Shown piece after piece: positions 14,699-57,889 of a stretch of 64,000 nucleotides of DNA. The notes beneath the pieces are model-generated. The model worked only from the letters and a program-made list of their open reading frames with translations. It did not search any database and was not told the origin of the DNA. Numbering within the stretch: position 1 is the stretch's first letter; the number at the start of each line of letters is the position of its first letter. The stretch covers positions 10,382,885 to 10,446,884 of the forward strand of contig OZ024783.1 of NCBI GenBank assembly GCA_964017065.1, written 5' to 3'. This DNA comes from Haliclona indistincta. Taxonomy: Eukaryota; Porifera; Demospongiae; Haplosclerida; Chalinidae. Position numbers and translations under genes: made by a program.

Positions 14699-14699
14699 C

Positions 14700-29659: not shown

Positions 29660-32600
29660 TCAAGTGTCAAACAGTAGTGGTTCTCTTGCCAACAATACTG
29701 GAGAGACTGAATCACGACCATCATGAGATTGAAACTCCAGCACAAACCGATGTTCTCCTCTACTTGAGCCATAGACTATTGATGGTGGGGATCCTGGAGG
29801 AGGTCTGTCCTCTTCATTGTCCTCTTCTGCTGCTACCTGAGGCACTTCAATATACTCCGGTCTGTTTTTAAATCCAAGCTTTCTCTTGATCTTTTTAAAA
29901 TCAAGGTTCCACCAAAGATGTATTGCCATAGTGACAAGACAGACAACAAAGGACAGGCAAACAGAGACAATGGTTGCTATTTGATAATGCTTGAACCTTA
30001 GAGAAGAAGCAGCAAGACTAGCAGTACTCAGGAGTAATATGTTGAGAAGATAAAAGACTTCAAGTGTGCTCAGATAAATCTTCTTATACACACCTTTCGT
30101 GAAAGACCAAAATATAAAAATACCCGCTACAACGGTGATGATGATGTAACCATTGATGGCAGCCAATTTTCCTGAAGTAAAGGAAAATGTCACAGTGAGA
30201 GTTAGTCGTGCCATTAAAGTCACTCCTGTCCAGAATCGAAATTTATCTTTGTATGGACCTCCATAAGCGTCTAACAGTGGCTTGAACTTTGCCACGGGAT
30301 TCCACCTGTGTAGTGGGATACACTTGTCACTGTATCTCTCTAGCAGAGGAGCACACAACACTAAAACAGGATAAGCTAGTCCAATGACCAGGACACAACA
30401 GGAGACGGCTACCAGAATAAGGTGTTTAAAACTGCCATAATCAATGTTCCCATCTATACTCCACACTATCAGTATACTGTCATTGCATGGCAACTGAAAC
30501 ATGGAAAGAGCATTAGTGACTGTGAGTAGGATTTTAGTGTAGGACATGAGAAACAGTGTAGCTAGTGCTGGGACAGCATGAGAGCCACACAACCTGCACA
30601 GCCACACAGAGTAGCGGCAGCCCACAATAATACCACCTATGAGCAGGAACAGGTAAGCAGGAAAGGCAAACTGTAGCCAAGTGTTCCAGTAGCTATCCAG
30701 TCCATCAAACAAACACACTTCAATACCCAGTTCAAGGTTAAGCCATGAGATGAACTGGCTCACCACTGGAATACTACCATTAGGGAAGAAAAAAGCTTCA
30801 TTGAGCTTCACCATGTTAGCGTAGAACAGGAGTCCATTGATAGTTCCGACAGAAACACTCAAGTTGAGGAACATCAACATAGCCACCAACACTATGCCAG
30901 CGAGGGCAAATACCGGCAACAAGAAAAGATACCAGTTAGAGCAAGTACTACAGCGATTGGATCCCAGCATGATACTAAGGTGAGACTGGCATTGTCCACA
31001 GAGTATACCTGTTCTATTGCCTAAACACTGACGATCTGGTGCCATGATATCAAATGAGACATTGGATTGATTGCAGTAGTCAAAAGGACAATTGGTAGTA
31101 CCAGTTATACACTGAGTGTTGTTGATGTAGGCGAACCAACCGTTGCCTGATTTAAGAAACTCAACACTTGTGGTAGATAAATTGCATTGGACATTGCTAG
31201 CACTCAAGAACTGCTCGCAGTGACACTGTCCTGAAATCTTAGTAAAGCCAATTGGGCACTCCCTGATGTCAACTCCAATAGACAAACCCCAGCCCGGTAG
31301 TCCACTATCCACTCTGATATCAACCAGTGCTGTTGCTGAGGAAGTGTTCTGCAGGAGAATGTGGAGCTGAAAACAGTTTTTATTGACGCTTTGACCATAG
31401 GAACGAACAAGTGTTGCATGTTGAGTATTGACCTGCACAACACCAGGACTAGTACCGCCATAGTATCCTACTGTAGCTATTGATGTGTTGATCTCTAGTC
31501 CTGGATATGATTGCATGTGATGCTGGGTCCTATCAGAGCAATCTGGTAAGCCACTATTGTTACAGAAGCAGACCATGATGGGGTCAGAGGACATGGATGA
31601 GAGTCTGTCAGTGTTAGTGAAATGAAAGTATTTACTGAGAGGAGTGTCAAAGTACCACGAGGTTTCATTGGGTTGTCCCACATGTGGTACATGTGGTTCA
31701 GAATTACAACCCATGAGTACTGCACCATACATATCACTTCCTGCTTTTCTTGCTCTGTTGCCTGAGAAGTCTATTGTGCCATAACCAACTGAGATTGTGA
31801 TTGTGCATTCCTTTTGATGATCCACTGCATATATTGAAGATTGCAAAAGAATTGCTCCACCACGTTCATCAGCAGTATTGTTGTACAGACACAGCTCGCC
31901 TTCAACTCCAATGCTGGCTTGCATTGATAGTGTGATACCTGCTCCCTCTGTGTTTCCATTATTCTGTATCACATTTCGACCACTGAATTCAGCGTGACTT
32001 GCGATTAGAGTGATTCCAGTCATATTGTTATTTGATATCACACAGTTGTCAAAATTACTATAACTACTACTATAACCACTAAATGCGGTAGTACAAAATA
32101 ATACAATGACAGAGTTACCTCCTGTGTTGTTCGAGAAGATACAGTTTACGATTTGAGTGAATGATTCATCCACAGACAAAATGACTGATACATTGTGACT
32201 GCTCTCAAACTGGCAGTCACATATTAGCAAGGATGTAATCTTTCTCATGTAAATGCCAGCTAATTGTAAATTTGCGAATTTCATTCTATTGTCACTTAAT
32301 GTAACTTGGGTGTCCCCATCACTGATAATAGACACTCCATAGTCTGAATATGTCATGCCAGTATGCACAATAGTTGACCCCATCAAGAGAAAAGTATTAA
32401 TTATTTGTGAAAGTAAAGAGATTTCAAAGCTTATATCATTAATCGATTGACCGTAATTATCAACGAAATCTGTGTTGATAATATTAACAAGTAGCGTTGA
32501 TTTAGAAACATCAAAATACATTCCACCGCCTACTGCAGCTGTATTTTGTGACAATACCAAATGCTCAAAAAACAGTTTAAAAGATCCATACATTGCATTG

Positions 32601-33325
32601 AACCTTATACCGCCTCCATTGCCATTGGTACGACACTTGGTTATATTCGAGTATGATAAGTTTAGTTCGTTGTTTCCTTCAGAACTGGATGGTCCACTGT
32701 ATGTAAACTCTATTGCGCTGTACTGATGCTCCCAAAATTCTTGGCTGATATTGAATGCTGTTGAATTATAGAAAGAACAGTTTGTGATCACTATAGGATT
32801 ATTACAGAGATAAATACGTAGTCCACATCCCATCATGTGTTGTATTGAATTCTTGAGAAAGAGAACATTCGTGACCCAAGAAAAGGAAAATACTCCATTA
32901 TGATCGTCTCTTCCACAGTTGACTACTGTAAGACTTTCAACCGTAATACTATGAGAACTATTAAAGATGAACAATCCTCTCCCTCTGGTGCAGTTGATAA
33001 TTACTGTAGACTGCATCACAGTCTCCTCAGCTCCTTTTATCGGCCACTGACCTTGTCCTTTCAGAGTCAGATTATACACATGGCTTATTACTACATACAC
33101 CTCTCCATCATAGCTGTGATTTCCTTCCAAGAAGATGATGGTGGTGTTAGTGGTGAAGTAGCGGCCAGGCTGGGAGATGTAGTAGGAGAGGTTGTGGCAT
33201 ATCTGGTGCGGAGGACATGACTGCTCATGACCAGCATCATCAGCTATGACATAGTAGACATCAGTGCTAGTAAAGGCAGAGACAGGTACAGTCAACAACA
33301 GCAGAAACACTAGTAGTGTTGCCAT
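29660..33325 (-). CDS. Beta-helix / 8TM receptor-like protein, copy I, 1221 aa
   Basis: Single-exon gene. Signal peptide MATLLVFLLLLTVPVSA, then a Cys-containing lead (CPPHQICHN). Residues about 55-560 form right-handed beta-helix-like repeats: many short beta/turn units with sequons and GGGI/GGGMYF turns; RGGAI near residue 488 followed by FSGNRARKAG near 520 resembles GGA[IL]/FxxN repeats of polymorphic outer-membrane proteins, taken here as structural similarity. A Cys-rich spacer ends with an EGF-like motif, CLGNRTGILCGQCQ (about 770). From about 797 there are eight hydrophobic spans with SVSVGTINGLLFYAN, WLNLELGIEVCLFDGL and KPLLDAYGGPYKDKFRFWTG. The cytosolic tail is acidic and Pro-rich (EEDRPPPGSPPS). 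I know the architecture from demosponges; its function is not established. Cell-surface sensing or recognition is inferred. Confidence 0.8.
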   Translation of the reverse strand: MATLLVFLLLLTVPVSAFTSTDVYYVIADDAGHEQSCPPHQICHNLSYYISQPGRYFTTNTTIIFLEGNHSYDGEVYVVISHVYNLTLKGQGQWPIKGAEETVMQSTVIINCTRGRGLFIFNSSHSITVESLTVVNCGRDDHNGVFSFSWVTNVLFLKNSIQHMMGCGLRIYLCNNPIVITNCSFYNSTAFNISQEFWEHQYSAIEFTYSGPSSSEGNNELNLSYSNITKCRTNGNGGGIRFNAMYGSFKLFFEHLVLSQNTAAVGGGMYFDVSKSTLLVNIINTDFVDNYGQSINDISFEISLLSQIINTFLLMGSTIVHTGMTYSDYGVSIISDGDTQVTLSDNRMKFANLQLAGIYMRKITSLLICDCQFESSHNVSVILSVDESFTQIVNCIFSNNTGGNSVIVLFCTTAFSGYSSSYSNFDNCVISNNNMTGITLIASHAEFSGRNVIQNNGNTEGAGITLSMQASIGVEGELCLYNNTADERGGAILLQSSIYAVDHQKECTITISVGYGTIDFSGNRARKAGSDMYGAVLMGCNSEPHVPHVGQPNETSWYFDTPLSKYFHFTNTDRLSSMSSDPIMVCFCNNSGLPDCSDRTQHHMQSYPGLEINTSIATVGYYGGTSPGVVQVNTQHATLVRSYGQSVNKNCFQLHILLQNTSSATALVDIRVDSGLPGWGLSIGVDIRECPIGFTKISGQCHCEQFLSASNVQCNLSTTSVEFLKSGNGWFAYINNTQCITGTTNCPFDYCNQSNVSFDIMAPDRQCLGNRTGILCGQCQSHLSIMLGSNRCSTCSNWYLFLLPVFALAGIVLVAMLMFLNLSVSVGTINGLLFYANMVKLNEAFFFPNGSIPVVSQFISWLNLELGIEVCLFDGLDSYWNTWLQFAFPAYLFLLIGGIIVGCRYSVWLCRLCGSHAVPALATLFLMSYTKILLTVTNALSMFQLPCNDSILIVWSIDGNIDYGSFKHLILVAVSCCVLVIGLAYPVLVLCAPLLERYSDKCIPLHRWNPVAKFKPLLDAYGGPYKDKFRFWTGVTLMARLTLTVTFSFTSGKLAAINGYIIITVVAGIFIFWSFTKGVYKKIYLSTLEVFYLLNILLLSTASLAASSLRFKHYQIATIVSVCLSFVVCLVTMAIHLWWNLDFKKIKRKLGFKNRPEYIEVPQVAAEEDNEEDRPPPGSPPSIVYGSSRGEHRFVLEFQSHDGRDSVSPVLLAREPLLFDT

Positions 33326-33395
33326 CAGCTGGTGATGCTGTTCAGTTAGTTATACAAGCGATTTTCTGAGTTTAAGACTGAGAGTCAGCCTCTAT

Positions 33396-33423
33396 TTAAT
33401 GTAGTAGAATGCGGCTACATTAA
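33396..33423 (-). promoter_or_regulatory. Conserved 28-bp palindrome upstream of receptor copy I
   Basis: TTAATGTAGY arms with an 8-bp centre, about 70 bp before the ATG. The same element is at 42210-42237, 57963-57990 and 63572-63599. On the coding strand a TATA-like TTAAATAGAGG overlaps its downstream edge here. Confidence 0.6.
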
Positions 33424-35159
33424 GTATGCTACAAAAACAACAAAGTCATCCATTGATGGGTAACATATGGCACTGAAAGGAAGTGGTGTGCAACTATGTA
33501 GTAGCCTAATGGAATGCTCTTAAAGGGTAACTGAAGTGATTTCTTCATGTTCCGCATTTTTCAATAGATGTACCATCACTAGCATCTGAACTAAAACAAT
33601 AACCACAGACCACATTCCTGACCACAGTGTAATTGCATTGGTAAACCACTCATTGACCCCCCATCTACATCAATATCTACTCATAAATATAAATATAAAC
33701 ATCATAAATATAGTAGAGGCCCTGACTAAGATTTGTATGCATTTAATAAAATTATAGGAGAGGATACCTCAACTGTTTTAGGGTAATTTGACCCCAAGGA
33801 ATAAGATGTAATAATGTGCAAAATTGTCTATCCGCTGCGAAATACCTGAAAATGACCACGCCCTTTTATCGGCAGTGTCACTAACAATAATTGCTCTATC
33901 TTCTTAACCAGTTTTAGTAACCTACTTTCTAGCAACTGTTCTAAGGTAATATGACCTTAAGTAATGTATTGGGATGTGAGCCAAAACCAATATTCACTGG
34001 AAAAAAAACGGCTAAAGCTTTTTCAGAAATGCATTAACATTTCTTTAAAGAGTTTAATAAGATTCTGTTGGTTTGAAAACAGTATAAATACATGGTATTA
34101 CCAACAAAAAGAGACAATTTAATAACTTGAGCAGTCACTTAAATATAAACTTAGGCAGTATTTAAAATGACGTTCACAAAAAATGGGTTTTTGCAGGTTC
34201 ACCTCCTTTACACTTGCAGTATTTGCAACACTTGATTTACCACATGTACAAGGATCAGGAAGGTCTTCAGGCTTGGAGGTAACAATACCAGGAACAATTA
34301 AATTTCTTTGTGAAACCATACAACTCAGTGTTCATTTCTAAACCATCTTCAAGTGGGGCTTGTATCCACAGCTGTTGTTGATAATATGCCATTTGAATAT
34401 GCTTTCTTGCATTGGCTGATGTGTAGGGAATTTTCTCAAAGTCCATTTTGAGGGAATTGCTATTAAAAGCAGCAAGATGCAAGTCATCAAATGTTTCCAA
34501 GTCTTTTGTTGGCTTGAAACACCTTACTACAGCACTGGGGACAAGCTTGCAAGGTGTCTCCCTGCACTCCATGCTCTGACTGGATGTAATACAACTCTAT
34601 GAAGCATGCACCAATGCGAGCTATCCACAACAATTTAACACTGATACTGAACTTTACACTTATACAAAACGTCTGTAACAACTCAGTGTTGATACAGAAG
34701 GCAGAAAATTTTCTAGTGAGGTGTCTCAAGCCAACAAAAGACTTAAAACATTTGATGACTTGCGTCTTGCTGCTTTTAATAGCAATTCCCTCAAAATGGA
34801 CTTTGAGAAATTTCCTGCACGTCAGCCAATGCAAGAAAGCATATTCAAAGGGCATAATATTATCAACAACAGCTGTGGATACAAGCCCCACTTGAAGATG
34901 GTTTAGAAATGAACGCTGAGTTGTATGGTTTCACATATGAAATTTAATGGCTCCTAGTATTGTTACCTCCAAGCCTGAAGACCTTCCTGATCCTTGTACA
35001 TGTGGTAAATGTGCCCACAAGAATGGATATGTTGTTGCAGGGTACATGTAGCTGGAATCAAGTGTTGCAAATACTGCAAGTGTAAAGGAGGTGAATCCTG
35101 CAAAAACCCATAACTTATTTTTTTGTGCACATCAATTTTAAATACTGCCCAAGTATATT

Positions 35160-36424
35160 AGGGAGACACGGTAGTGTCTCCCTATGTAGGGTTGAACGAG
35201 AAAACAAGATGACGGCTACATACATGTATTAGCGTTTAAACGCTGATATTTCGCCTGGTGATGAACTTTATACGTCCAAAGACACTTAGATCTGCTCTCT
35301 GGCGTTGCCCCATCTTACAGTAGCAAGGAGATTGCTCGAGATTGTTACTAAAGTGACGAACCTGGAAACGGTGAAAATCGAGTTTCGTCATCTTCGTTTT
35401 CTTCTTTCTTTCTTCTTTCTTTCTTCCACTCGCCTAGCGCCTTTACGCGAGCAGTGCCGAGACCAAAACATCCACGAACATTCGTGAAATTCTCCTGGCA
35501 GGTGCCTTCTGAACATTGTTTTTAGCGAAACGGCGATCTGAATTCCGCGAGTTCTCGATCGTGATCCATTGTCAGCTAAGTGTTAGACGCCATTATTGCG
35601 ATTGCGCAACACGCACGTGACCAAGCAGTGGCTAGCGCACGTGACCAAGCACTAGCTTGAGTATCGCCATGCCATACGGATCATGGAGAACACATATTTG
35701 TCTGGAGTCTTCGAATAACGGCAAGCTCGTGTAGGATCGCCATTCTGCGCTTGCCAGATAATTATAACCGGCGTACAGGTCTACAAATAAGTGTGGGCGG
35801 GGCTCGTATGCACTGCATGCATGCATGAATGCGTAGGCGAGCTAGTATGTACCACATAACAAATATTTTTAGCTACAAGTTTAAAATTGCTAATAATAAA
35901 GAAAAGCCATCAGCAACTGGAAAACTAAACCAATGGTGGAAACCATGACAAAGACAACTCAGTACATGGATGATATTGAACTGCACTTCACTGAAAATGA
36001 TAAAAGGACACAAACAAGAAAATAAAAAAGATTTCTATCGAAATCAAAAGGATGTAGGGTTGTGAAATCTACCACTGGTCCACAATGTAATCTAACAAGG
36101 AACAAGCATGGAATGGTAACACGATTGACTTGCTAACAGACCATAGATCCCTACATCAGTGGCTGTACATAAGATCAAGAATTATTTTGTCACAAGCTGA
36201 ATCCAATTCAATTTAATGCATGTCTGGTGTCAGTCAACAGCAACTAGCTGAATTAGCTATAGCCAACCACAGCAGCCACTGATGTAGGGATCTATGGTCT
36301 GTTAGCAAGTCAATCGTGTTACCATTCCATGCTTGTTCCTTGTTAGATTACATTGTGGACCAGTGGTAGATTTCACAACCCTACATCCTTTTGATTTCGA
36401 TAAAAATCTTTTTTATTTTCTTGT
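35160..36424. mobile_element. Composite foldback transposon, family H, copy 2
   Basis: Nested in the unit I palindrome; unit II has the empty site. A possible 4-bp duplication TATT flanks it (35156-35159, 36424-36427). The left end is a perfect hairpin (35160-35183, arms AGGGAGACAC/GTGTCTCCCT), then ATGTAGGGTTG and AAGATGACGGCTAC (one mismatch to the YY1-type motif), then a TTTCTTCTTTC tract near 35400. The right end is the foldback 36014-36424. No coding sequence. Confidence 0.6.
36014..36424. repeat. Foldback with 152-bp arms
   Basis: Arms 36014-36165 and 36273-36424 are near-perfect inverted repeats (ACAAGAAAATAAAAAAGATT, GATGTAGGGTTGTGAAATC, ending CCCTACATCAGTGGCTG) around a 107-bp spacer. 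Confidence 0.9.
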
Positions 36425-36697: not shown

Positions 36698-36964
36698 TCA
36701 CAAGTCAGTAACTGCTTCCTTTCCTTTTCCGAAAACAGCAACACTAGAGGATTCAGTAAGCTTCAAAATATCAGCATCTTGCAAACCAGGAAAAGCAACT
36801 CCATTCCATTGTCCATCTCTGTTAAGATAAGTAACTTGTATTTTAGAAGGTTTTGGTAAAGCTCCTCCACAGGTAAATCGTTCAGAAGATAACTTTCCCA
36901 AGGATCGTATAAATTCAGCGTTAGCTATATCTGCCAAAGAATTTACTGTTTCACTGCTAGCCAT
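36698..36964 (-). pseudogene. Dioxygenase family, 5' fragment
   Basis: Encodes the first 88 residues of a divergent paralogue (MASSETVNSLADIANAEFIR, ERFTCGGALPKPSK, VAFPGLQDADILKL, GKGKEAVTD), then leaves homology just before KSYRD and stops. No catalytic residues are present. In unit II all but the first about 10 codons are deleted. Confidence 0.75.
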
Positions 36965-38436: not shown

Positions 38437-41400
38437 TCAAGTGTCAAACAGTAGTGGTTCTCTTGCCAACAATACTGGAGAGACTGAATCACGACCATCA
38501 TGAGATTGAAACTGCAGCACAAACCGATGTTCTTCTCTACTTGAGCCATAAACTACTGATGGTGGGGATCCTGGAGGAGGTTTGTCCTCTTCATCGTCCA
38601 CATCTCCTGCTACCTGAGGCGCTGCAATATACTCCGGTCTGTCTTTAAATCCAAGCTTTCTCCTGATCTTTTTAAAATCAAAATTCCACCAGAGATGTAT
38701 TGCCATAGTGACAAGACAGACAACAAAGGACAGGCAAACAGAGACAATGGTTGCTATTTGATAATGCTTGAACCTTAGAGAAGCAGCAGCCAGACTAACA
38801 GTGCTCAGGAGAAGTATGTTGAGAAGATAAAAAATTTCAAGTATGCTCAGATAAATCTTCTTATACACACCTTTCGTGAGAGACCAAAATATGAAAATAC
38901 CTGCTACAACAGTAATAATGATGTAACCATTGACGACAGCCAATTTTCCTGAAGTAAAAGAAAATGTCACAGAAAGAGTTAGTCGTACCATTAAAGTCAC
39001 TCCTGTCCAGAATCGAAATTTATCTTTGTAAGGACCTCCATAAGCGTCTAACAGTGGCTTGAACTTTGCCACGGGATTCCACCTGTGTAGTGGGATACAC
39101 TTGTCACTGTATCTCTCCAGCAGAGGAGCACACAACACTAAAACAGGATAAGCCAGTCCAACGACCAGGACACAACAGGAGATGGCTACCAGAATAAGGT
39201 GTTTAAAACTGCCATAATCAATGTTCCCATCTACACTCCACACTATCAGTATACTGTCATTGCATGGCAAGTGATACATGGAAAGAGCATTAGTGACTGT
39301 GAGTAGGATTTTAGTGTAGGACATGAAAAACAGAGTAGCTAGTGCTGGGACAGCATGAGAGCCACACAACCTACATAGCCACACAGAGTAGCGGCAGCCC
39401 ACAATAATACCACTTATGAGCAGGAACAGGTAAGCAGGAAAGGCAAACTGTAACCAAGTGTTCCAGTAGCCATCCAGTCCATCAAACAAACACACTTCAA
39501 TACCAAGTTCAAGATTAAGCCATGACATGAACTGGCTCACCACTGGAATACTACCATTAGGGAAGAAGAAAGCTTCATTGAGCTTCACCATGTTAGCGTA
39601 GAACAGGAGTCCATTGATAGTTCCGACAGAGACACTCAAGTTGAGGAACATCAACATAGCCACCAACACTATGCCAGCGAGGGTAAATACCGGCAACAAG
39701 AAAAGATACCAGTTAGAGCAAGTGCCACAGCGATTGGATCCTAGCATGATACTAAGGTGAGACTGGCATTGTCCACAGAGTATACCTGTTCTATTGCCTA
39801 TACATTGACGATCTGGTGCCATGATGTCAAATGAGACATTGGATCGATTGCAGTAGTCAAAAGGACAATTAGTAGTACCAGTTATACACTGAGTGTTGTT
39901 GATGTAGGCGAACCAACTGTTGCCTGATCTAAGAAACTCAACGCTTGTGGTAGATAAATTGCATTGGACATTGCTAGCACTCAAGAACTGCTCGCAGTGA
40001 CACTGTCCTGAAATCTTAGTAAAGCCAATTGGGCACTCCCTGATGTCAACTCCAATAGACAAACCCCAGCCCGGTAGTCCCCTATCCACTCTGATATCAA
40101 CCAGTGCTGTTGTTGAGGAAGTGTTCTGCAGGAGAATGTGGAGCTGAAAACAGTTTTTATTGAAGCTTTTACCATAGGAACGAACAAGTGTTGCATGTTG
40201 AGTACTGACCTGCACAACACCAGGACTAGTACCGCCATAGTATCCTACTGTAGCTATTGATGTGTTGATCTCTAGTCCTGGATATGATTGCATGTGATGC
40301 TGGGTCCTATCAGAGCAATCTGGTAAGCCACTATTGTTACAGAAGCAGACCATGATGGGGTCAGAGGCCATGGAGGAGAGTCTGTCAGTGTTAGTGAAAT
40401 GAAAGTATTTACTGAGAGGAGTGTCAAAGTACCACGAGGTTTCATTGGGTTGTCCCACATGTGGTACAACATGTCCATAAGGTAATGTAGGATTACAACC
40501 CATTAGTACTGCACCATACATATCACTTCCTCCTTTTCTTGCTCTGTTGCCTGAGAAGTTTATTGTGCCATTATCATCAACTGAGATTGAGCATTCCTTT
40601 TGATGATCCACTGCATATGGTAAAGACTGTAAAAGAATTGCTCCACCACGTTCATCAGCAGTGTTGTTGTACAGACACAGCTCGCCATCAACTGCAATGT
40701 TGGCTTGCATTGATAGTGTGATACCTGCTCCCTCTGTGTTTCTGTTATTCTGTATCACATTTCGACCTTTGAATTTAATCTTACTTGCGATTAGAGTGAT
40801 TCCAGTCATATTATTATTTGATATGACACAGTTTTCAAAAGAATTACCATCACTAAATGAGTTCTTACAAAAGAATACAATGACAGAGTTACCTCCTGTG
40901 TTGTTCGAGAAGATACAGTTTACGATATGAGTGAATGCTTCAAGCACAGACAAAATGACTGACACATTGTGACTGCTCTCAAACTGACAATCATATATTT
41001 GCAAGTTTTGAATGGCTTTCAACCTTTCCATGTAAAAGCCAGCTATATGTATATTTGCAAATTTCATTCTAGTGTCCCTTAATGTAACAGTAGTGTCCTC
41101 ATCACTGATAATAGACACTCCAGTCTCCATAGCCTGAATATGTCATGCCAGTATGCACAATAGTTGAGCCCAGCAAGGAAAAAGTAATATGTGAATCAAA
41201 GCCTTTGTGGTTGGTGGTTTGCATACCTGAAATGGCTGCTAATTTTATATCATTACAGAAATGACCATAATTATCAATAAAATCTGTGTTGATAATATTA
41301 ACATGTAGCGTTGCCTTATAAACAACAAAATACATTCCGCCTACTGCAGCTGTATTTTGTGACAATACCAAATGCTCAAAAAACAGTTCAAACGATCGAT

Positions 41401-42139
41401 CATATGCAGCACCGAACCCTATACCGCCTCCATAGCCATTGGTACAACACTTGGTTATATTCGAGTATGATAAGTTTAGTTGGTAGTTTCCTTCAGAACT
41501 GAATAGTCCAATGTATGAAAAATCTATTGCGCTGTAACGATACTCCCAAGTGTCTTGGCTGATATTGAATGCTGTTGAATTATAGAAAGAACAGTTTGTG
41601 ATCACTATAGGATTTTTACAGAGATGAATACTTAGTCCACATCCCATCATGTGCTGTATTGAATTCTTGAGAAAGAGAACATTCCTGACCAAAGAAAAGG
41701 AAAATACTCCATTATGATAGTCTCTTCCACAGTTGACTACTGTAAGACTTTCAACCGTAATATTATGAGACCTATCAAAGATGAACAATCCTCTCCCTCT
41801 GGTGCAGTTGATAATTACTGTAGACTGCATCACAGTCTCCTCAGCTCCTTTTATCGGCCACTGACCTTGTCCTTTCAGAGTCAGATTATGCACATGGCTT
41901 ATATTTACATGCGACTCTCTATCATAGCTGTGATTTCCTTCCAAGAAGATGATGGTGGTGTTAGAGGTGAAGTAGCGACCAGGCTGGGAGATGTAGTAGG
42001 AGAAGTTGTGGCATATCTGGTGTGGAGGACATGACTGCTCATGACCAGCATCATCAGCTATGACATAGTAGACATCAGTGCTTGTAAAGGCAGAGACAGG
42101 TACAGTCAACAACAGCAGAAACACTAGTAGTGTTGCCAT
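38437..42139 (-). pseudogene. Beta-helix / 8TM receptor-like gene, copy II, frameshifted
   Basis: Full-length homology to copies I and III, but the frame breaks at about residue 340. The N-terminal frame (42139 to 41102) ends SGYGDWSVYYQ; the rest (from about 41130) resumes GVSIISDEDTTVTL. Compared with copy I, 7 bp are inserted (about 41119-41128). Everything downstream is intact, including RGGAIL, the EGF-like CIGNRTGILCGQCQ, eight spans and the acidic tail. A single lesion in 3.7 kb suggests a very recent pseudogene, an assembly error or an allele. The 5' frame would give a secreted beta-helix fragment of about 345 aa. Confidence 0.8.
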
Positions 42140-42209
42140 CAGCTGGTGATGCTGTTCAGTTAGTTATACAAGCGATGTTCTGAGTTTAAGACTGAGAGTC
42201 AGCCTCTAT

Positions 42210-42852: not shown

Positions 42853-44085
42853 AGTTTAATAAGATTCTGGTGGTTTGAAAACAGTATAAGTACATGGTAT
42901 TACCAACAAAAAGAGACAATTTATTAACTTGAGGAGTCACTTAAATATAAACTTGGGCAGCATTTAAAATTGATGTTCACAAAAAAATGTTTTTTGCAGG
43001 ATTTACACATTTGTAGTATTTGCAACACTTGATTCCAGCTACCCTGCAGCGATATATCCATTCTTGTGGGCACATTTACCACATGTACAAGGAAGGTCTT
43101 CAGGCTTGGAGGCAACAATACCAGGAACCATTAAATTTTCTTTGTGAAACCATACAACTCAGTGTTCATTTCTAAACCATCTTCAAGTGGGGTTTGTATC
43201 CACAGCTGTTGTTGATAATATGCCCTTTGAATATGCTTTCTTGCATTGGCTGACGTGGAGGGAATTTTCTCAAAGTCCATTTTGAGGGAATTGCTATTAA
43301 AAGCAGCAAGATGCAAGTCATCAAATGTTTCCAAGTCTTTTGTTGGCTTGAGACACCTTACTACAGCACTGGGGACAAGCTTGCAAGGTGTCTCCCTGCA
43401 CTCCATGCTCTGACTGGATGTGATACAACTAGCAAGATTTCAACGAAGCATGCACCAATGCAAGCTATCCACAACTATTTAACACTGATACTGAACTTTA
43501 CACTGATAAAGAACGTCTGTAACAACTCAGAGTTGATACAGAAGGCAGAAAATCTTTTAGTAAGGTGTCTCAAGCCAACAAAAGACTTAAAACATTTGAT
43601 GACTTGCGTCTTGCTGCTTTTACTAGCAATTCCCTCAAAATGGACTTTGAGAAAATTCCCTGCACGTCAGCCAATGCAAGAAAGCATATTCAAAGGGCAT
43701 ATTATCAACAACAGCTGTGGATACAAGCCCCACTTAAAGATGGTTTAGAAATGAACACTGAGTTGTATGGTTTCACATAGAAAATTTAATGGTTCCTGGT
43801 ATTGTTACCTCCAAGCCTGAAGACTTTCCTGATCCTTGTACATGTGGTAAATGTGCCCACAAGAATGGATATGCCGCTGCAGGGTAGCTGGAATCAAGTG
43901 TTGTAATTACTGCAAGTGTAAAGGAGGTGAATCCTGCAAAAACCCATAACTTATTTTTTGTGAACATCATTTTCAAATACTGCCTAAGTTTATATTTAAG
44001 TGACTCCTCAACTTATTAAATTGTCTCTTTTGTTGGTAATACAATGTACTTGTACTGTTTCAAACCAACAGAATCTTAAAATAAC
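42853..44085. mobile_element. Palindromic transposon fragment, unit II
   Basis: Uninterrupted version of the unit I palindrome. Left arm about 42853-43365 (- strand protein piece), right arm 43561-44085 (+ strand piece), spacer with LPALHALTGCDTTSKISTKH. Ends resemble inverted repeats (AGAGTT, AAGATTCTG(G/T)TGGTTTGAAA). Frames are shifted near 43590, so no intact protein. Confidence 0.55.
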
Positions 44086-45199: not shown

Positions 45200-46469
45200 T
45201 CTCTTTGATGTTGGTTCACTTTGTCCATTGGCAAATTCTTCACCGATAATATGTAGAGGTGACCTATCGCTCCATTTAGGTACAGTAACTAAAATAGCTG
45301 CAGCCATGTACAAAGTCTCTGTACCATCGCATTCATGTTCGGGGCCAAAATCAGGAGCTGCAAAACCTGGTACTTTCTACTTAAATTCCTGGCACCAGAT
45401 GATACCTTCAGCATTTTTATAACCATGACGATAAAACCACTTCTTCCAGGAATATATTTCAATCCAAAGTTCGGATCCTTGTTCGCCATCTCATAGTGAA
45501 ACTGGCAATGAAACAAACATTCCTGTATGTCATAATTATCGTCAAAGTCCTTAGCACTAACAATGGACTTCACTTCTACTTCGAGCCCAAGTGAAGTAGC
45601 AGCTAACATCACCATACGATCAGATCCCTTCAGTAGAATTTTGGGGTCTTTTGACTCTCCAATCTCTTCAAAAACATATGAATGTTGACAGGCAAAACCA
45701 AGGACACCACCTTCACGTAGGAAATGTGGCTGACCTAGTGCTGCCTTGAGATTTTGGTACAATGGAGTGGTAGTAACATCCAATGAAGGAACTGGATTAA
45801 GCTGGTCACAATGGTAGAGGTTATAGGTTAAAGTCACACGATAGCCATTGGTAACTGGAAGTATTTCGTGTTCCACATCACTGAAGAATGCTGCCCACTG
45901 AATGACAGGATCACTAGTTGGTGAGGACCAGTAACCTCTTGACCTTGGTGTCTAGTAACAAGTGATCCTCCAGTGAACTGTGAAGGTAAACACACAACCA
46001 GACTACCAAACATGTCACCTCCACGAGGAGTGTCAACATGAGCCTTGAAGCATCCAGTAGGACCACTGTACACATTCATCTTGTACAACTCAGCTCGAAT
46101 ATTGAGAACATCTGGAACTAACAACACACGTACTTCTCCAATAATTCCACAGTCTGAAAGGTGAAATGAAGTAAAGAACTTTTCTGGCTCTAATGCATAA
46201 GCGTCTCTGTAACTCTTGTCAGTAACTGTTTCCTTTCCTTTTCCAAAACTAGCAACACTAGAGGATTCAATAAGCTTGAGAATATCAGCATCTTGCAAAC
46301 CAGGAAAAGCAACAGTATTCCATTGTCCAACTTTGTTGAGATAAGCAGCTTGTACTTTAGAAGGTGTTAGAATACTACCACCACAGGTAAATCGTTCAGT
46401 AGCTATCTCTCCCAAAGACTTCACAATCTGAGAATTGGCCATCTCCTCTAAAGATCGTCCTTCAGCCAT
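45200..46469 (-). pseudogene. Dioxygenase family pseudogene, near full length
   Basis: Starts MAEGRSLEEMANSQIVKSLG at 46469 and matches the intact gene at 7802-9049 closely. It keeps HVDTPRGG, but 7 bp (TCATAAG on +) are missing near 45931, shifting the frame right after QEVT. The HEI and YRVTLTYNLY motifs continue in the next frame. A second shift occurs near 45450 and an in-frame TAG replaces Gln in EFK-Q-KVPG near 45378. The 3' end resembles the unit fragments (AAAILVTVP) rather than the gene at 7802, so it may be a chimera. Confidence 0.8.
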
Positions 46470-46611
46470 CTTCTGATTCACCAAAGAAAAACTCCTAACA
46501 GCACGCCTCAATACTTTTCCACAACGTAGCAGCTGCATACTGTAAATCCAGAGTCTAAATAAGATGTTGAACAGCACTGAAGATGCACACTTAAATAGAA
46601 TACTGTAGTGC

Positions 46612-46722
46612 CGACTCAGCAATAGCACAATTTCATAATTAGTATATTCTAGTGCAGTGCTGTTGTGTTGTCTATTGTTTGTGTATTGTGTGTCAGTGCT
46701 CCACTGTGCTGTTTCTTATTGT
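46612..46722 (-). mobile_element. LINE 3' remnant
   Basis: Matches 11615-11727 (ACTCAGCAATAGCACAATTT, GTGCTCCACTGTGCTGTTTC) next to the dioxygenase upstream region, as at the 7802 locus. Confidence 0.6.
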
Positions 46723-49486: not shown

Positions 49487-50016
49487 TCCGGTTTCAAAAT
49501 TCTTATTTACAAAATAATGTGTAGGTTATTTTATATTCGAGCAAACAGATGACCAAGATAATTTGAGTGTTTTTTTTTGCTTTTAAAAAACAGCAAATGA
49601 AAGAGTTCACTCTTCAGACTCGCCCTTTCGCTTGGAGAGTGGTGTGAGCAAAGCAATGCATTCATGTCCAGCTACATGTGTGCATTTAAAAAATGATAAT
49701 CTGTTTGCTTGCATGCTTCCATGGTTCCACTGCTTTTAGTGCACCACTGTTTGAATCTGTGCACCTTTGGAGATACATTCTTTAAATCTATGAAGTGATG
49801 TAAAGCACACCTGTGCATGGTTGTAATTGTGTGGTTTCTGGTTACATATGGTTGTGTGGTTTCTGGAACATGGTTGTGTGGTTGTGTGGTCACACAAGTT
49901 GTGTGGTTTCTGGTTACATGCTGCAATGCTTGTAATAACTGATCACAAATACTCTAGTACCTATAATACACAGTGGATGTCTCTGGAATTCAACTTAGCT
50001 AGTTTAGTGTAGCACA
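49487..50016 (+). promoter_or_regulatory. Upstream region of the 50017 5TM gene
   Basis: Homologous to the upstream DNA of 21534 and 12795. TATAATA at 49962-49968 lies 55 bp before the ATG. A minisatellite of GGTTGTGTGGTTTCTGG-type units (49822-49922) is expanded here relative to the paralogues. Confidence 0.6.
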
Positions 50017-50832
50017 ATGCCAGCGTTCTGTTATAGCTATAGTGTTATGGTCATCCTCAAGATTCTACCAGCTATACTTGTTTCCATCACAATTTCACTA
50101 AGTTGCGTTATACCTATATGCTGTCAGAACATCAAGAGGACAAGCAATATTCGCAAAATAGCTGAAAGTGCTACAGAAATCATTCTCGGCAAAATTCTGA
50201 AAAAACGCAGAAATGAAGAAGGAGATGAATCCTATATTGTATTCAACTACAAAGCTCCTAATACACACGTATTCATACTGTTCTCAATATTGATTCAATT
50301 GATTAGTATTGCTATGATTCAGTTCTGGGATACGTTCCTACTAAGTGACACTTTTGGCTGCACACCAAATGGCTTTGCCTGTTGCTACAGTTTAAATACA
50401 ACATTTAGTCAACCCTTGGACTGCCACAATACAACCTACTTAAAAGAAAACAACATCAATTTCATCATTTGTTACAGATATGTTTTCAGACTAGGAGCAG
50501 CCACTGGGTCAGCACTTGGTACAGTGACAACCACTGTTATATTGTTACTGGTCATTACTTGGATTCTTCTGAAGTGTTCCAAGGGAGCCAACCGAACAGT
50601 GCGTAGACGATGGTGTACTGCAATCACACAAGTTATAATGATATTGACAACCATAGCTGTTACTGGTATACTGATCTATTTGGAGTTGGAAACACATCTA
50701 TTAACACCTTCCAGTGTGATTAATGCTATCGGTAAAGTCTATCCTACAGGAGCAATAATATGTCTTTACATGTTCCACTTTCAATGGTGGCTATTTGAAA
50801 AGATTGCTGATGACAATGATCAGACACCATAA
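50017..50832 (+). CDS. 5TM-family membrane protein, short tail, 271 aa
   Basis: Intact representative of the subfamily that includes the pseudogenes at 12795 and 21534. Spans are about residues 10-34, 88-110, 166-189, 203-225 and 242-256. Conserved parts: ICCQNIKRTSNIRKIAESAT (basic cytosolic helix), YIVFNYKAPN, FWDTFLLSDTFGCTPNGFAC, LDCHNTTYLKENNINFIICY and GAATGSALGTVTTT. Four or five loop cysteines and sequons NTT and NAT-like sites point to an extracellular loop. The tail is short (FEKIADDNDQTP), unlike the long acidic tails at 4783 and 24363. Single exon. AATAAA at 50863-50868. Function unknown. Confidence 0.78.
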   Translation: MPAFCYSYSVMVILKILPAILVSITISLSCVIPICCQNIKRTSNIRKIAESATEIILGKILKKRRNEEGDESYIVFNYKAPNTHVFILFSILIQLISIAMIQFWDTFLLSDTFGCTPNGFACCYSLNTTFSQPLDCHNTTYLKENNINFIICYRYVFRLGAATGSALGTVTTTVILLLVITWILLKCSKGANRTVRRRWCTAITQVIMILTTIAVTGILIYLELETHLLTPSSVINAIGKVYPTGAIICLYMFHFQWWLFEKIADDNDQTP

Positions 50833-51061: not shown

Positions 51062-51352
51062 ACAAGTAATAAAATCATTTTAAACAAAATGGAAGAGATT
51101 TAGGGTTGGTACATTTATCGAAAAAGTATGGAAACAAGATTTTGAAATGAAAAGGATTGTAACAATAGCAGTGTAATGATACCTCCTATTAAATTAACCA
51201 CAACTATCGAAAGCAGTTAATTTAGGGAGGTATCATTACACTGCTATTGTTACAATCCTTTTCATTTCAAAATCTTGTTTCTATACTTTTTCGATAAATG
51301 TACCAACCCTAAATCTCTTGCATTTTGGTTAAAATGTTTTTTATTACTTGTA
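51062..51352. repeat. Long palindrome, about 125-bp arms
   Basis: Arms about 51062-51185 and 51224-51352 (ACAAGTAATAAAA, GAGATTTAGGGTTGGTACAT, GGATTGTAACAATAGCAGTG, ATGATACCTCC) flank a spacer of about 38 bp. Confidence 0.9.
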
Positions 51353-52237: not shown

Positions 52238-52337
52238 AGTAGAAGTATATTGTATTCTAGTTTGTATGCTATTGATTTTGAGAATTAAATATTGTTTATC
52301 AAGTCAATCATTCATAAAACAAGACATAGCATAATTA

Positions 52338-53302
52338 ATTTTTATTACATAATATTATTATTAATTTTTATTCTTCTCAATTACGGAAAAGTACATAACA
52401 AGCATTCAATGGTGTGAATATACTCAAAACTGTGCACACATGTGAGCTGAATACTGCAAGTTATGTGCCCGGTCTCTGAGGCAGTACGGGATATATTTAT
52501 CCCAATCGCCGAAGAGACTGGGAGTTAAAAGCGATTTTTTCATGTTCCATTTTATTGTATTTCTCAATAGATACTAGTACATAGACAATGTAAAAAAGTT
52601 TTAGCAAGCTAGTTCAAACAGTCCCAGAGTTATAGCAAGCTAAAAAAGCATGTACTCCCACGCAAAATTAAGTGGGCGTGTCAATTAATGATGTAGGTCA
52701 GGACCTAAAGGTTGATGGCTGGTCAGATGATAAAGAAAATGAGCCAGTTGAGAAGAGAAAAAGGTTAAGTCTCAACAAGAAGAAGCCTGCGGAGCAGCAG
52801 TCTTTCGCTGGGCGGGTTACGTCAATATGAGAAGGTGACAACAACTCAACAGCAAGCTGTTTGTCATGTGCTATCTGTGAATACAAATTCTACTTATGAC
52901 AACGAAGTTTCACGCATGAGCTTTCCTTCAACTTCTTCAGCAGTACCAAGCTCACATTCAACTTCAGCTTCACAAGTTGTACCAAGCACACCTACAACAG
53001 CTGCAGCTCTACCGCAAATGAATTTTAGCTCTTGCTCGGTTCACATTTATCAAGGCACTACCCCTTCGTGCAAGAATTGAGCTGATGGCAGCCATTTGAC
53101 TAACTCTTTGCTTTCTATTATAATTATCATTATATTATGCAATTTATTATGCATTACCCTCTTGAAATATAGCATTACCCTCTTGAAATATAGAATTAAC
53201 CACTCTAAATATAGCACCTCCACTTGTGATATTGCATTGATGTAAATGTAGCTTATTTAGAACACATCAATATCCTTAGCAACCACATAGCAACGGGATA
53301 TA
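52338..53302. other. Noncoding region
   Basis: No gene recognised. A Ser/Thr-rich ORF at 52835-53080 (MSFPSTSSAVPSSHSTSAS) has no match to the other families and may be a stray exon or chance. Confidence 0.3.
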
Positions 53303-53559
53303 AGTGTACATATACAACAAAACAGCGGCAATTAAAATTTGCATCTGAAGTCGAACTGCAAAATTAAATTCCCACCGCATTGTCATACGGTGCCATCCAT
53401 ACAGTGTGCATTGAGAGCAGCAACACTATTCATAGTACTTCTTTGAATAGCATGCACACATTTTAATGTTAGGATCACTCTGTATCATTGTATTGTAACA
53501 CATCTGTACACAAGAAATCTATGTAGAGCTACTTTAGACTTTAATCCTTATGAGCCCAT

Positions 53560-53939
53560 TGAAATTAGCTGCTACAGTTATAATAATGTTCAACAACACA
53601 CTGCCAATGACAGTCGATAGTCTTACTCAGCATCTTCAATTGCTTATTTTTTCTCTTTTCTTCATCTTCTTTGTTGTCTTTGTTTTCTTTCGTTTTGCTG
53701 CCCTCTTTGATGTTAGTACACTTTGTCCATTGGCACATTCTTCATCGATATCATGTAGAGGTGACCTATCGCTCCATGTAGGTACAGTAACTAAAATAGC
53801 TGCAGCCATGTACAAAGTTTCTGTACCATGGAATGAATCATGGGTAAAATCAGGAGCTACAATACCTGGTACCTTCTGCTTAAATTCCTGACACCAGATG
53901 ATACCTTCAGCATTTTCATAACCGAAATAGCGCAAAAGA
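53560..53939 (-). pseudogene. Dioxygenase family, 3' fragment, unit III
   Basis: Encodes YFGYENAEGIIWCQEFKQK, TLYMAAAILVTVPTWSDRSP and a lysine-rich end (KRKKTKTTKKMKKREK). Cut at 53940 at the same point as the copy at 38112, so the truncation predates duplication. Confidence 0.75.
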
Positions 53940-54253
53940 TACAAATAGTTTGACTAGCTTGCTGCCTAGTGTGCAGTGGTGCCATGTTTTTTATACCCGC
54001 CCACGCACCAGGTAAGTACGCAAATTTGAAAATCTCGCTACATCAAAGAAAATTATTCATATCATAGTTATAAATGTCTATACTACTCGTACTGTATATA
54101 CACTACCACTATTACACATTAGGATCACTTGTGCATTACCAGTAAAAAAACTCAACAACAAGACTGAAGCTAATTTAAAGTCAAATGGCTAGAAAGATGG
54201 TGTCCAGAAAGAGCTACTCATAGCCATAATGTGTGCACACGATAAGAAGCAGC

Positions 54254-57200
54254 TCAAGTGTCAAACAGTAGTGGTTCTCTTGCCAACAATACTGGAGAGA
54301 CTGAATCACGACCATCACGAGATCGAAACTCCAGCACAAACCGATGTTCTCCTCTACTTGAGCCATAAACTATTGATGGTGGAGATCCTGGAGGAGGTCT
54401 GTCCTCTTCATCGTCCACTTCTGCTGCTACCTGAGGCACTTCAACATACTCCGGTCGGTCTTTAAATCCAAGCCTTCTCTTGATCTTTTTAAAATCAAGG
54501 TTCCACCAGAGGTGTATTGCCATAGTGACAAGACAAACAACAAAGGACAGGCAAACAGAGACAATGGTTGCTATTTGATAATGCTTGAACCTTAGAGAAG
54601 CAGTAGCCAGACTAACAATGCTCAGAAGAAATATGTTGAGAAGATAAAATACTTCAAGTGTGCTCAGATATATATTCTTATACACACCTTTCGTGAAAGA
54701 CCAAAATATGAAAATACCCGCTACAACGGTAATAATGATGCAACTATTGATGGCAGCCAATTTTCCTGAAGTAAAGGAAAATGTCACAGTGAGAGTTAGT
54801 CGTACCATTAAAGTCACTCCTGTCCAGAATCGAAACTTATCTTTGTGAGGACCTCCATAAGCGTCTAACAGTGGCTTGAACTTTGCCACGGGATTCCACC
54901 TGTGTAGTGGGATACACTTGTCACTGTATCTCTCTAGCAGAGGAGCACACAACACTAAAATAGGATAAGCCAGTCCAACGACCAGGACACAACAGGAGAT
55001 GGCTACAAGAACAAGGTGTTTAAAACTGCCATAACCAATGTTCCCATCTACACTCCACACTATCAGTATACTGTCATTGCATGGCAACTGAAACATGGAA
55101 AGAGCATTAGTGACTGTGAGTAGGATTTTAGTGTAGGACATGAAAAACAGTGTAGCTAGTGCTGGGACAGCATGAGAGCCACACAACCTGCATAGCCACA
55201 CAGAGTAGCGGCAGCCCACAATAATACCACCTATGAGCAGGAACAGGTAAGCAGGAAATGCAAACTGTAGCCAAGTGTTCCAGTAGCCATCCAGTCCATC
55301 AAACAAACACACTTCAATACCCAGTTCAAGATTAAGCCATGAGATGAACTGGCTCACCACTGGAATACTACCATTAGGGAAGAAGAAAGCTTCATTGAGC
55401 TTCACCATGTTAGCGTAGAACAGGAGTCCATTGATAGTTCCGACAGAGACACTCAAGTTGAGGAACATCAACATAGCCACCAACACTATGCCAGCGAGGG
55501 CAAATACCGGCAACAAGAAAAGATACCAGTTAGAGCAAGTACCACAGCGATTGGATCCTAGCATGATACTAAGGTGAGACTGGCATTGTCCACAGAGTAT
55601 ACCTGTTCTGTTGCCCATACACTGACGATCAGGTGCCATGATGTCAAATGAGACATTGGATTGATTGCAGTAGTCAAAAGGACAATTAGTAGTACCAGTT
55701 ATACACTGAGTGTTGTTGATGTAGGTGAACCAACTGTTGCCTGATCTAAGAAACTCGACACTTGTGGTAGATAAATTGCATTGGACATTGCTAGCACTCA
55801 AGAACTGCTCGCAGTGACACTGTCCTGAAATCTTAGTAAAGCCAATTGGGCACTCCATTATGTCAACTCCAATAGACAAACCCCAGCCCGGTAGTCCACT
55901 ATCCACTCTGATATCAACCAGTGCTGTTGCTGAGGAAGTGTTCTGCAGGAGAATGTGGAGCTGAAAACAGTTTTTATTGACGCTTTGACCATAAGAACGA
56001 ACAAGTGTTGCATGTTGAGTACTGACCTGCACAACACCAGGACTAGTACCGCCATAGTATCCTACTGTAGCTATTGATGTGTTGATCTCTAGTCCTGGAT
56101 ATGATTGCATGTGATGCTGGGTCCTATCAGAGCAATCTGGTAAGCCACTATTGTTACAGAAGCAGACCATGATGGGGTCAGAGGCCATGGAGGAGAATCT
56201 GTCAGTGTTAGTGAAATGAAAGTATTTACTGAGAGGAGTGTCAAAGTACCACGAGGTTTCATTGGGTTGTCCCACATGTGGTACATCGCTACAACCCATG
56301 AGTACTGCACCATACATATCACTTCCTCCTTTTCTTGCTCTGTTGCCTGAGAATTTTATTGTGCCATAAACATCTGTGAATGTGCATTCCTTTCCAAGAT
56401 CCACTGCATATGTTGAAGACTGCAAAAAAATTGCTCCACCACGTTCATCAGCAGTGTTGTTGTACAAACACAGCTCGCCCCAAAGTGTAATGCTGGCTTG
56501 CATTGATAGTGTGATACCTGCTCCCTCTGTGTTTCTGTTATTCTGTATCACATTTCGACCATTGAATATAACCTTACTTGCGATTAGAGTGATTCCAGTC
56601 ATATTATTATTTGATACCACACAGTTTTCAAAAAAATTAGCATTATTAAATGGGACCATACAAAAGAATAAAATGACAGAGTTACCTCCTGTGTTGTTCG
56701 AGAAGATACAGTTTTCGATTGTAGTGGGTGCTTCAAGAACAGACAAAATGACTGACACGTTGTGACTGCTCTCAAACTGGCAGTCATATATTTCCAAACG
56801 TTGCTTGCCTCTCATACTTTTCATGTAAACGCCAGCTAAATCTAAATTTGCAAATTTCATTCTAGTGTTCCTTACTGTAACATAGGTGTACCCATTATTG
56901 ATAATAGACACTCCATAGTCTGAATATGCCATGCCAGTATGCACAATAGTTGACCTCAGCAAATTAAAAGAAATTGGTGAATCTGAAGAGCCTGCAAAGC
57001 TTATATCATTAATAGAAAGACCGTAATTATCAATAAAATCTGTGTTGATAATACTAACATGTAGCGCTGAAGTACCAGAATCAAAATACATTCCACCGCC
57101 TACTGCAGCTGTATTTTGTGACAATACCAAATGCTCAAGAAACAGTTTAAACGATCCAGAATTTGCTTGGAACCAAATACCGCCTCCATTGCCATTGGTA

Positions 57201-57889
57201 CGACATTTGGTTATATTTGAGTATGATAAGTCTAGTTGGTAGTTTCCTTCAGAACTGAATGGTCCATCGTATGACAAGACTATTACACTGCTTTGATGAG
57301 CGTCTTGGCTGATATTCAATGCTGTTGAAATATAGAAAGAACAGTTTGTGATCACTATAGGATTTCTACAGCCATAAATAGATAGTCCACATCCCATCAT
57401 GTGTTGTATTGAATTCTTGAGAAAGAAAACATTCGTGACCCAAGAAAAGGAAAATACTCCATTACGATCGTCTCTTCCACAGTTGACTACTGTAAGACTT
57501 TCAACCATAATATTATGAGACCAATCAAAGATGAACAATCCTCTCCCTCTGGTGCAGTTGATAATTACTGTAGACTGCAACACAGTCTCCTCAGCTCCTT
57601 TTATTGGCCATTGACCTTGTCCTTTCAGAGTCAGATTATACACATGGCTTATTACTACATGCACCTCTCTATCATAGGTGTGATTTCCTTCCAAGAAGAT
57701 GATGGTGGTGTTAGAGGTGAAGTAGTGGCCAGGCTGGGAGATGTAGTAGGAGAGGTTGTGGCATATCTGGTGTGGAGGACATGACTGCTCATGACCAGCA
57801 CCATCAGCTATGACATAGTAGACATCAGTGCTTGTAAAGGCAGAGACAGGTACAGTCAACAACAGCAGAAACACTAGTAGTGTTGCCAT
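54254..57889 (-). CDS. Beta-helix / 8TM receptor-like protein, copy III, 1211 aa
   Basis: Intact single-exon gene with the same order of parts as copy I: signal peptide MATLLVFLLLLTVPVSA, glycosylated beta-helix ectodomain (GGGIWF, GGGMYF, RGGAIFLQ, FSGNRARKGG), Cys-rich spacer with CMGNRTGILCGQCQ, eight membrane spans, acidic/Pro-rich tail. The membrane block differs from copy I at few positions. Differences concentrate in ectodomain patches, for example SQDAHQSSVIVLSY here versus SQEFWEHQYSAIEFTY in copy I, and DISFAGSSDSPISFNLL versus DISFEISLLSQIINTFLL. A shorter loop (GCSDVPHVG) lacks residues found in copy II. Function unknown; variable cell-surface sensing or recognition is inferred. 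Confidence 0.8.
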   Translation of the reverse strand: MATLLVFLLLLTVPVSAFTSTDVYYVIADGAGHEQSCPPHQICHNLSYYISQPGHYFTSNTTIIFLEGNHTYDREVHVVISHVYNLTLKGQGQWPIKGAEETVLQSTVIINCTRGRGLFIFDWSHNIMVESLTVVNCGRDDRNGVFSFSWVTNVFFLKNSIQHMMGCGLSIYGCRNPIVITNCSFYISTALNISQDAHQSSVIVLSYDGPFSSEGNYQLDLSYSNITKCRTNGNGGGIWFQANSGSFKLFLEHLVLSQNTAAVGGGMYFDSGTSALHVSIINTDFIDNYGLSINDISFAGSSDSPISFNLLRSTIVHTGMAYSDYGVSIINNGYTYVTVRNTRMKFANLDLAGVYMKSMRGKQRLEIYDCQFESSHNVSVILSVLEAPTTIENCIFSNNTGGNSVILFFCMVPFNNANFFENCVVSNNNMTGITLIASKVIFNGRNVIQNNRNTEGAGITLSMQASITLWGELCLYNNTADERGGAIFLQSSTYAVDLGKECTFTDVYGTIKFSGNRARKGGSDMYGAVLMGCSDVPHVGQPNETSWYFDTPLSKYFHFTNTDRFSSMASDPIMVCFCNNSGLPDCSDRTQHHMQSYPGLEINTSIATVGYYGGTSPGVVQVSTQHATLVRSYGQSVNKNCFQLHILLQNTSSATALVDIRVDSGLPGWGLSIGVDIMECPIGFTKISGQCHCEQFLSASNVQCNLSTTSVEFLRSGNSWFTYINNTQCITGTTNCPFDYCNQSNVSFDIMAPDRQCMGNRTGILCGQCQSHLSIMLGSNRCGTCSNWYLFLLPVFALAGIVLVAMLMFLNLSVSVGTINGLLFYANMVKLNEAFFFPNGSIPVVSQFISWLNLELGIEVCLFDGLDGYWNTWLQFAFPAYLFLLIGGIIVGCRYSVWLCRLCGSHAVPALATLFFMSYTKILLTVTNALSMFQLPCNDSILIVWSVDGNIGYGSFKHLVLVAISCCVLVVGLAYPILVLCAPLLERYSDKCIPLHRWNPVAKFKPLLDAYGGPHKDKFRFWTGVTLMVRLTLTVTFSFTSGKLAAINSCIIITVVAGIFIFWSFTKGVYKNIYLSTLEVFYLLNIFLLSIVSLATASLRFKHYQIATIVSVCLSFVVCLVTMAIHLWWNLDFKKIKRRLGFKDRPEYVEVPQVAAEVDDEEDRPPPGSPPSIVYGSSRGEHRFVLEFRSRDGRDSVSPVLLAREPLLFDT

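Follow-up and report, generated by a model that had tools for sequence, protein, structure and literature searches.

A large sponge family of single-exon genes combining a diversified predicted beta-helix ectodomain with a conserved membrane block

We analyzed a 64,000-nucleotide stretch of the genome of the sponge Haliclona indistincta (contig OZ024783.1, positions 10,382,885 to 10,446,884; hereafter, the window, with the 19-Mb contig denoted C1). The window carries three copies, I, II and III, of a large single-exon gene for a putative receptor, all on the minus strand, where the original prediction had placed them (Table 1). Each gene is predicted to encode a signal peptide, a beta-helix of about 14 coils, a conserved membrane block with several helices and, at the end, a short tail. 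Copies I and III are uninterrupted from the signal peptide onward, and both end with LLAREPLLFDT. In its present form, copy II is broken: a 7-base insertion near positions 41122-41129, relative to both copies I and III, shifts the frame; the two resulting frames overlap at 41102-41142, and the gene is a pseudogene or a recent break. Apart from this insertion, all insertions and deletions (indels) in the DNA alignment of the three copies are multiples of three. The Beta_helix family PF13229 (46.3 and 39 bits in copies I and III, respectively, against a cut-off of 25.9) is the sole Pfam family above the threshold in either protein, and for copy III, no sequence relatives were found in PDB at E-values up to 1.

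The ectodomain of copy III was modelled as a right-handed beta-helix of roughly 14 coils, similar to those of polysaccharide lyases and phage tailspikes. Nine of the 14 coil anchor positions in copy III, examined for the asparagine ladder that marks turn T2 in polysaccharide lyases of family 6 (PL6), are occupied by Asn and one by Cys (anchors were placed by eye, and turn T2 was assigned from the sequence register), and the positions around the anchors are conserved. The variable positions repeat with a period of one coil and share a single phase, probably that of the T3-PB1 face. Copies III and I carry 19 to 21 possible N-glycosylation sites ahead of the membrane block, and among 19 intact copies from C1, 26 of the 40 glycosylation-site columns are common to at least 16. 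The membrane block had been described as nearly fixed and as consisting of eight transmembrane helices; its low divergence and small share of the residue entropy (see below) bear out the first part, whereas the eight helices are not confirmed, hydropathy indicating six or seven beyond the signal peptide in four proteins (with one stretch inside the copy I beta-helix excluded). The model of the block (mean predicted local distance difference test score of 34) is too poor for a fold search. A profile of an alignment of 35 family members (A1) gave no solved structure better than a GH110 enzyme with an E-value of 0.036, a match that probably falls in the beta-helix columns. Weak Pfam matches were obtained for DUF3611 in 5 of the 35 members (best E-value 0.0021) and for a CGLD27-like family in four (0.03).

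The three copies belong to a large family. A search of the genome (144.0 Mb, 46 contigs) with copy I yielded, among the best 38 of 753 candidates, at least 31 loci on C1 between 8.03 and 10.81 Mb, including copies I to III, 25 of these on the minus strand, and seven paralogues outside this cluster, on contigs C4, C5, C6, C8 and C10. Two further searches with pieces of the membrane block (best 95 of 552 and best 91 of 635 scored candidates) bring the family to at least 106 related places genome-wide, some of them broken; 11 of the 91 entries in the second list were new when the lists were compared by hand. PF13229 matches occur at at least 121 places in the genome (best 137 of 471 candidates), with some genes matched more than once, and the protein database contains 565 relatives among 7996 scored candidates. 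One array on C6 (1050331-1141828), apparently a recent expansion, consists of six more members, five with open frames of 1270 to 1273 amino acids and one of 2839. Within the C1 cluster, L028, L029 and L030 stand apart: their ectodomain is of the cluster type, but the C-terminal end of their membrane block and the tail are of another kind; in one alignment window, the identity of this end to the best cluster copy is only 49%, as it is to the best of the seven paralogues outside the cluster. Three Wnt loci, each matched in two or three pieces, indicate an animal genome, Wnt being specific to animals. A prokaryotic and a viral origin were considered and rejected on the basis of scans that find close relatives only: 12 pattern-matching stretches in genome_contigs included none coding for a relative, and viral_contigs did not contain any match.

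Variation among the copies is concentrated in the ectodomain. Over the 19 intact copies, 76% of the residue entropy falls within alignment columns 77-603 and 13% within the membrane block, and 11 high-entropy patches were delineated. The grouping of the differences in short ectodomain patches, first noticed in the comparison of the three window copies, is thus borne out, and all four patches that had been named were recovered: those after NISQ, NDI and FFC by entropy, and the loop before PHVG by its many indels (gap fraction of 0.26-0.32 in columns 521-600). Targeted mutation of the kind caused by diversity-generating retroelements was rejected as the source of the variation given that there is no adenine bias (derived states per ectodomain site: A 0.54, C 0.55, G 0.52, T 0.40).

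Table 1. Family genes, their parts and high-entropy patches within the window
Feature	Positions	Strand	Basis or remark
Copy I, single-exon receptor gene, 1221 amino acids, open	29660..33325	minus	open frame 29660-33349
Copy I variable beta-helix ectodomain, amino acids 76-556	31658..33100	minus	Pfam and divergence; structure model is that of copy III
Copy I conserved membrane block, amino acids 745-1145	29891..31093	minus	divergence and hydropathy
Copy II, broken gene	38437..42139	minus	now reads as two frames, 41102-42163 and 38437-41142
Copy III, single-exon receptor gene, 1211 amino acids, open	54254..57889	minus	open frame 54254-57913, ATG at 57889
Copy III variable beta-helix ectodomain, amino acids 76-546	56252..57664	minus	divergence, entropy, structure model
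Copy III conserved membrane block, amino acids 735-1135	54485..55687	minus	divergence and hydropathy
Two adjacent high-entropy patches after NISQ, copy III	57254..57304	minus	entropy
High-entropy patch, copy III	57161..57169	minus	entropy
High-entropy patch, copy III	57062..57082	minus	entropy
High-entropy patch after NDI, copy III	56972..56986	minus	entropy
High-entropy patch, copy III	56876..56896	minus	entropy
High-entropy patch, copy III	56786..56821	minus	entropy
High-entropy patch, copy III	56717..56734	minus	entropy
Two adjacent high-entropy patches after FFC, copy III	56630..56665	minus	entropy
High-entropy patch, copy III	56564..56572	minus	entropy

Nonsynonymous (dN) and synonymous (dS) divergence were averaged by the Nei-Gojobori method over the 171 pairs of the 19 intact C1 copies, leaving out L028, L029 and L030, which have the other type of C-terminal end. 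In the variable ectodomain (columns 77-603), dS is 0.104 and dN is 0.131; when columns within three positions of any gap are masked, the values are 0.087 and 0.077, respectively (dN/dS of 0.89). In the juxtamembrane part, dS is 0.056 and dN is 0.021. The membrane block (dS 0.088, dN 0.025; masked, 0.090 and 0.025) differs from the ectodomain primarily in dN, which exceeds dS in 150 of the 171 pairs in the ectodomain and in none in the membrane block. The same pattern is seen in the recent pair L019/L022, where the synonymous proportions are 0.028 in the ectodomain and 0.025 in the membrane block, and the nonsynonymous proportions are 0.059 and 0.003 (one-sided Fisher p of 0.013 for the nonsynonymous excess over synonymous change in the ectodomain); for L019/L020, p is 0.065, and the ectodomain ratios of two other recent pairs, L020/L021 and L028/L029, are near 1.

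In the likelihood tests, a codon mixture with two rates and a separate tree for every 100 codons was compared to the same mixture restricted to dN not exceeding dS. In C1, twice the log-likelihood difference (2dlnL) is 220.6 for the 465 ectodomain codons with less than 20% gaps, with 119 sites above 0.9, and 90.8 for the 338 masked codons, with 33 such sites; because gap masking weakens the signal without removing it, we rejected alignment error as its source. The juxtamembrane part (188 codons, 2dlnL 3.0) and the membrane block (404 codons, 2dlnL 2.0) contain no site above 0.9. In 12 simulations under the restricted model, 2dlnL never exceeded 10.3, and 15 sites rose above 0.9 in one simulation and 0 to 3 in the others. 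A second cluster, on C5, served as a replicate (12 regions fetched; the short L046 and the distant L055 left out and L042 included, for 11 copies). Here, the ectodomain (dS 0.233, dN 0.181) again differs from the membrane block (dS 0.216, dN 0.061) mostly in dN, and 2dlnL is 74.3 for ectodomain columns with less than 20% gaps, 41.4 after masking and 0.4 for the membrane block, with base rates taken from C1 and without simulations; the mean ectodomain dN/dS in C5 is below 1 (0.78; masked, 0.62). Strong diversifying selection in the ectodomain, with none detected in the membrane block, is supported by these results, in agreement with the proposal of such selection on an exposed scaffold.

Some of the measurements weigh against so simple a picture. 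Synonymous divergence is uneven, reaching 0.15-0.20 in four ectodomain windows and falling at both ends of the gene, and in 40-codon windows across columns 201-440, dS spans 0.08-0.20 compared to 0.03-0.14 in the membrane block. The expectation that synonymous divergence would not follow the nonsynonymous patches thus held only in part: dS does rise in some of them, whereas the masked averages of the two regions are nearly equal.

A sister subfamily with the same arrangement of a beta-helix and multiple helices (about 900-935 amino acids, 22-31% identity over matched stretches) provides a control. The six members fetched, L056-L061, lie on C1 at 9.09-11.19 Mb; five stand within the cluster and the sixth 0.4 Mb outside it, and five are on the plus strand. 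In the five long-frame copies, four of them in the cluster, the beta-helix has a dN/dS of 0.56 and the membrane part one of 0.59, and 3 of 16 windows of 60 codons are above 1. The pattern of the main family is not found here, and therefore neighbourhood and architecture alone do not produce it. In this subfamily, the beta-helix is rather conserved, and the N-terminus and parts of the membrane block change more; a search with the subfamily returned 129 database proteins.

The original prediction allowed that gene conversion of the membrane block could look similar; in this reading, the block would be kept uniform while the ectodomain merely drifts. Exchange between copies is indeed extensive. 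When six gene segments were compared to each other's trees with the approximately unbiased (AU) test, 29 of the 30 cross tests were rejected, the exception being the juxtamembrane data with the tree of columns 401-603 (0.07). A test of the pairwise homoplasy index (PHI) type gave 0 of 500 permutations for the ectodomain, 20 of 500 for the membrane block and 273 of 500 for the juxtamembrane part, for which exchange is therefore not supported. For 16 of the 19 copies, not one of the other copies is the closest in over 6 of the 12 patches compared. With the exception of four recent relatives, L019-L022, the copies are mosaics produced by segment exchange along the whole gene. Local homogenization probably occurs as well, given that dS is low around the signal peptide (0.019), in columns 601-720 (0.03-0.05) and in the tail (0.038), although the low signal peptide value is not repeated in C5 (0.245). 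In the flanks, homology fades past about 200 bases upstream and persists downstream over the 200 bases seen. Nevertheless, conversion of the membrane block is a very improbable main cause of the pattern: dS in the block is close to that in the ectodomain in both clusters, and dN is above dS at the supported ectodomain sites. Because dS is similar and dN differs fivefold, and conversion alone would lower dS too, the membrane block appears to be fixed mainly by purifying selection.

Relaxed constraint, with spare copies decaying and an ectodomain that is no longer important, would account for the masked dN/dS approaching 1 and for the eight of the 31 cluster copies that lack a single full-length open frame, along with a ninth, L027, that lacks the usual start. 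We consider this explanation highly implausible: 22 of the 31 copies are full length and open over 1199-1225 codons, the surroundings of the coil anchors and most glycosylation-site columns are conserved, and dN exceeds dS at the supported sites.

Taken together, these observations point, with a probability of roughly 0.7 in our estimate, to recognition receptors encoded by a large family of single-exon genes, in which one diversified face of the beta-helix, T3 plus PB1, reads different ligands and a common membrane block signals. The computations support a family that has expanded both in tandem and by dispersal, in which only the ectodomain is under diversifying selection, the membrane block is under purifying selection and segments are exchanged between copies. 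The ligand-binding surface may be the single repeating face formed by the T3 turn and the PB1 strand of each coil; if so, each copy would read a different ligand, and the common membrane block would pass on a common signal. Our preferred reading is a repertoire directed at polymers such as glycans, and the ligands could be extended polymers, for example, glycans of microbes, of symbionts or of the animal itself, given the many polysaccharide lyases, epimerases and phage tailspikes among the nearest solved folds. That, in an early-branching animal, a beta-helix of the polysaccharide-lyase type has become the antigen-reading surface of a genome-encoded recognition repertoire, with one face varied coil by coil to distinguish microbial, symbiont or self glycans, much as leucine-rich repeats are in variable lymphocyte receptors, and coupled to a shared membrane signalling block, is a tentative proposal to which we give somewhat less than even odds.

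The right-handed beta-helix fold is common to the predicted ectodomain and PL6, RbmB, AlgE and phage tailspikes, although identity is only 9-16%; unlike lyases, epimerases and tailspikes, the genes described here are animal genes in which the beta-helix is attached to a multi-helix membrane block. In PL6 lyases, PB1 carries the active site, with Lys, Arg and His named as the catalytic residues (PMC6879350); copies I and III show no Pfam match to a lyase or other enzyme family. The variable lymphocyte receptors of jawless fish are also solenoids, with variable residues repeated on one face of a conserved frame. These, however, consist of leucine-rich repeats and are assembled somatically, in contrast to the germline genes, beta-helix and multi-helix membrane block of the sponge family.

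How sponges discriminate among self, symbionts and pathogens is largely unsolved. The family described here is a concrete candidate for sponge recognition, as it occupies at least 106 places in the genome and combines a predicted ligand face under measured diversifying selection with a conserved membrane block. If glycan binding holds true, it would add a new recognition scaffold to the immunoglobulin, leucine-rich repeat, SRCR and NOD-like families. A comparably large recognition-type expansion in a sponge is the SRCR superfamily of Amphimedon queenslandica, where 158 of 296 are in tandem arrays (PMC10855680); SRCR genes encode another domain and have several exons each, unlike the single-exon genes here. 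Likewise, the NOD-like receptors of Dysidea avara constitute a sponge immune-receptor repertoire of another protein family (PMC12909245), and a word search of its main text did not find beta-helix. Neither the SRCR nor the NACHT domain matches copies I and III at E-values up to 1. Among the entries listed in searches of the open-licence literature, part of which used beta-helix terms, none concerns a beta-helix receptor family in sponges; PMC10445921 names beta-helix repeats once, among the abbreviations, and the passages covered of PMC4302439 do not mention a beta helix.

A chemosensory repertoire for dissolved or food-borne cues, akin to olfactory receptor families and not concerned with immunity, would fit the number of places occupied by one family of membrane receptors, many of them in arrays. 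We regard this explanation as unlikely, given that the variation lies in a long solenoid and not in the membrane bundle, and that neither copies I and III nor the 35 members of A1 match any Pfam family of seven-helix receptors (G protein-coupled receptors, GPCRs) at E-values up to 1, although hydropathy leaves the helix count at six or seven.

Allorecognition, in which the cluster would be a polymorphic self/non-self locus with copies or haplotypes matched between individuals, also appears improbable. It accords with the clustered, diversified and potentially glycosylated ectodomains, and with sponge graft responses that indicate a polymorphic genetic system (PMC5450542). Furthermore, the best matches of the four database proteins P0007, P0008, P0009 and P0011 among the fetched genome copies (best-scoring candidates) are only 88.4-94.5% identical, which suggests copies that differ between assemblies. 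However, members are scattered over many contigs, and for 14 of the 31 cluster copies, the 120 proteins listed include one that is identical to the copy, contains it or is contained in it. Between three further near-identical database counterparts and their genome copies, there are 1, 3 and 1 residue differences (in one case, the protein is another version of a copy that also has an exact match); for a fourth, the sole difference is the reading of the first codon. Differences of one to three residues do not look like extreme allelic polymorphism, on which this comparison bears only weakly. The sponge aggregation factor has a proposed role in sponge self recognition (PMC5450542). In copies I and III, Calx-beta and VWD had no match at E-values up to 1, and Wreath was likewise absent from the Pfam scan. 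These three are the defining domains of the aggregation factor.

Several other features were noted within the window. Two duplicated stretches, 21440-22166 and 49923-50684, are 84-91% identical and carry a short hydrophobic open frame that looks multi-helical (50008-50832). A coding-like stretch is repeated at 8131-9041 and 45558-46461 and partly at 36704-36947; the frame 45834-46715 presumably resembles a 2-oxoglutarate/iron oxygenase. Pairs of inverted repeats of 152-290 bases, 95-99% complementary, at 59394-61860, 43081-43839, 10954-11601 and 36014-36424 are perhaps small mobile elements. Across 14001-20000, the AT skew is strong (-0.28 to -0.47) and sets this region apart from the remainder of the window, and 19671-20688 contains two identical 300-base stretches with starts 718 bases apart.
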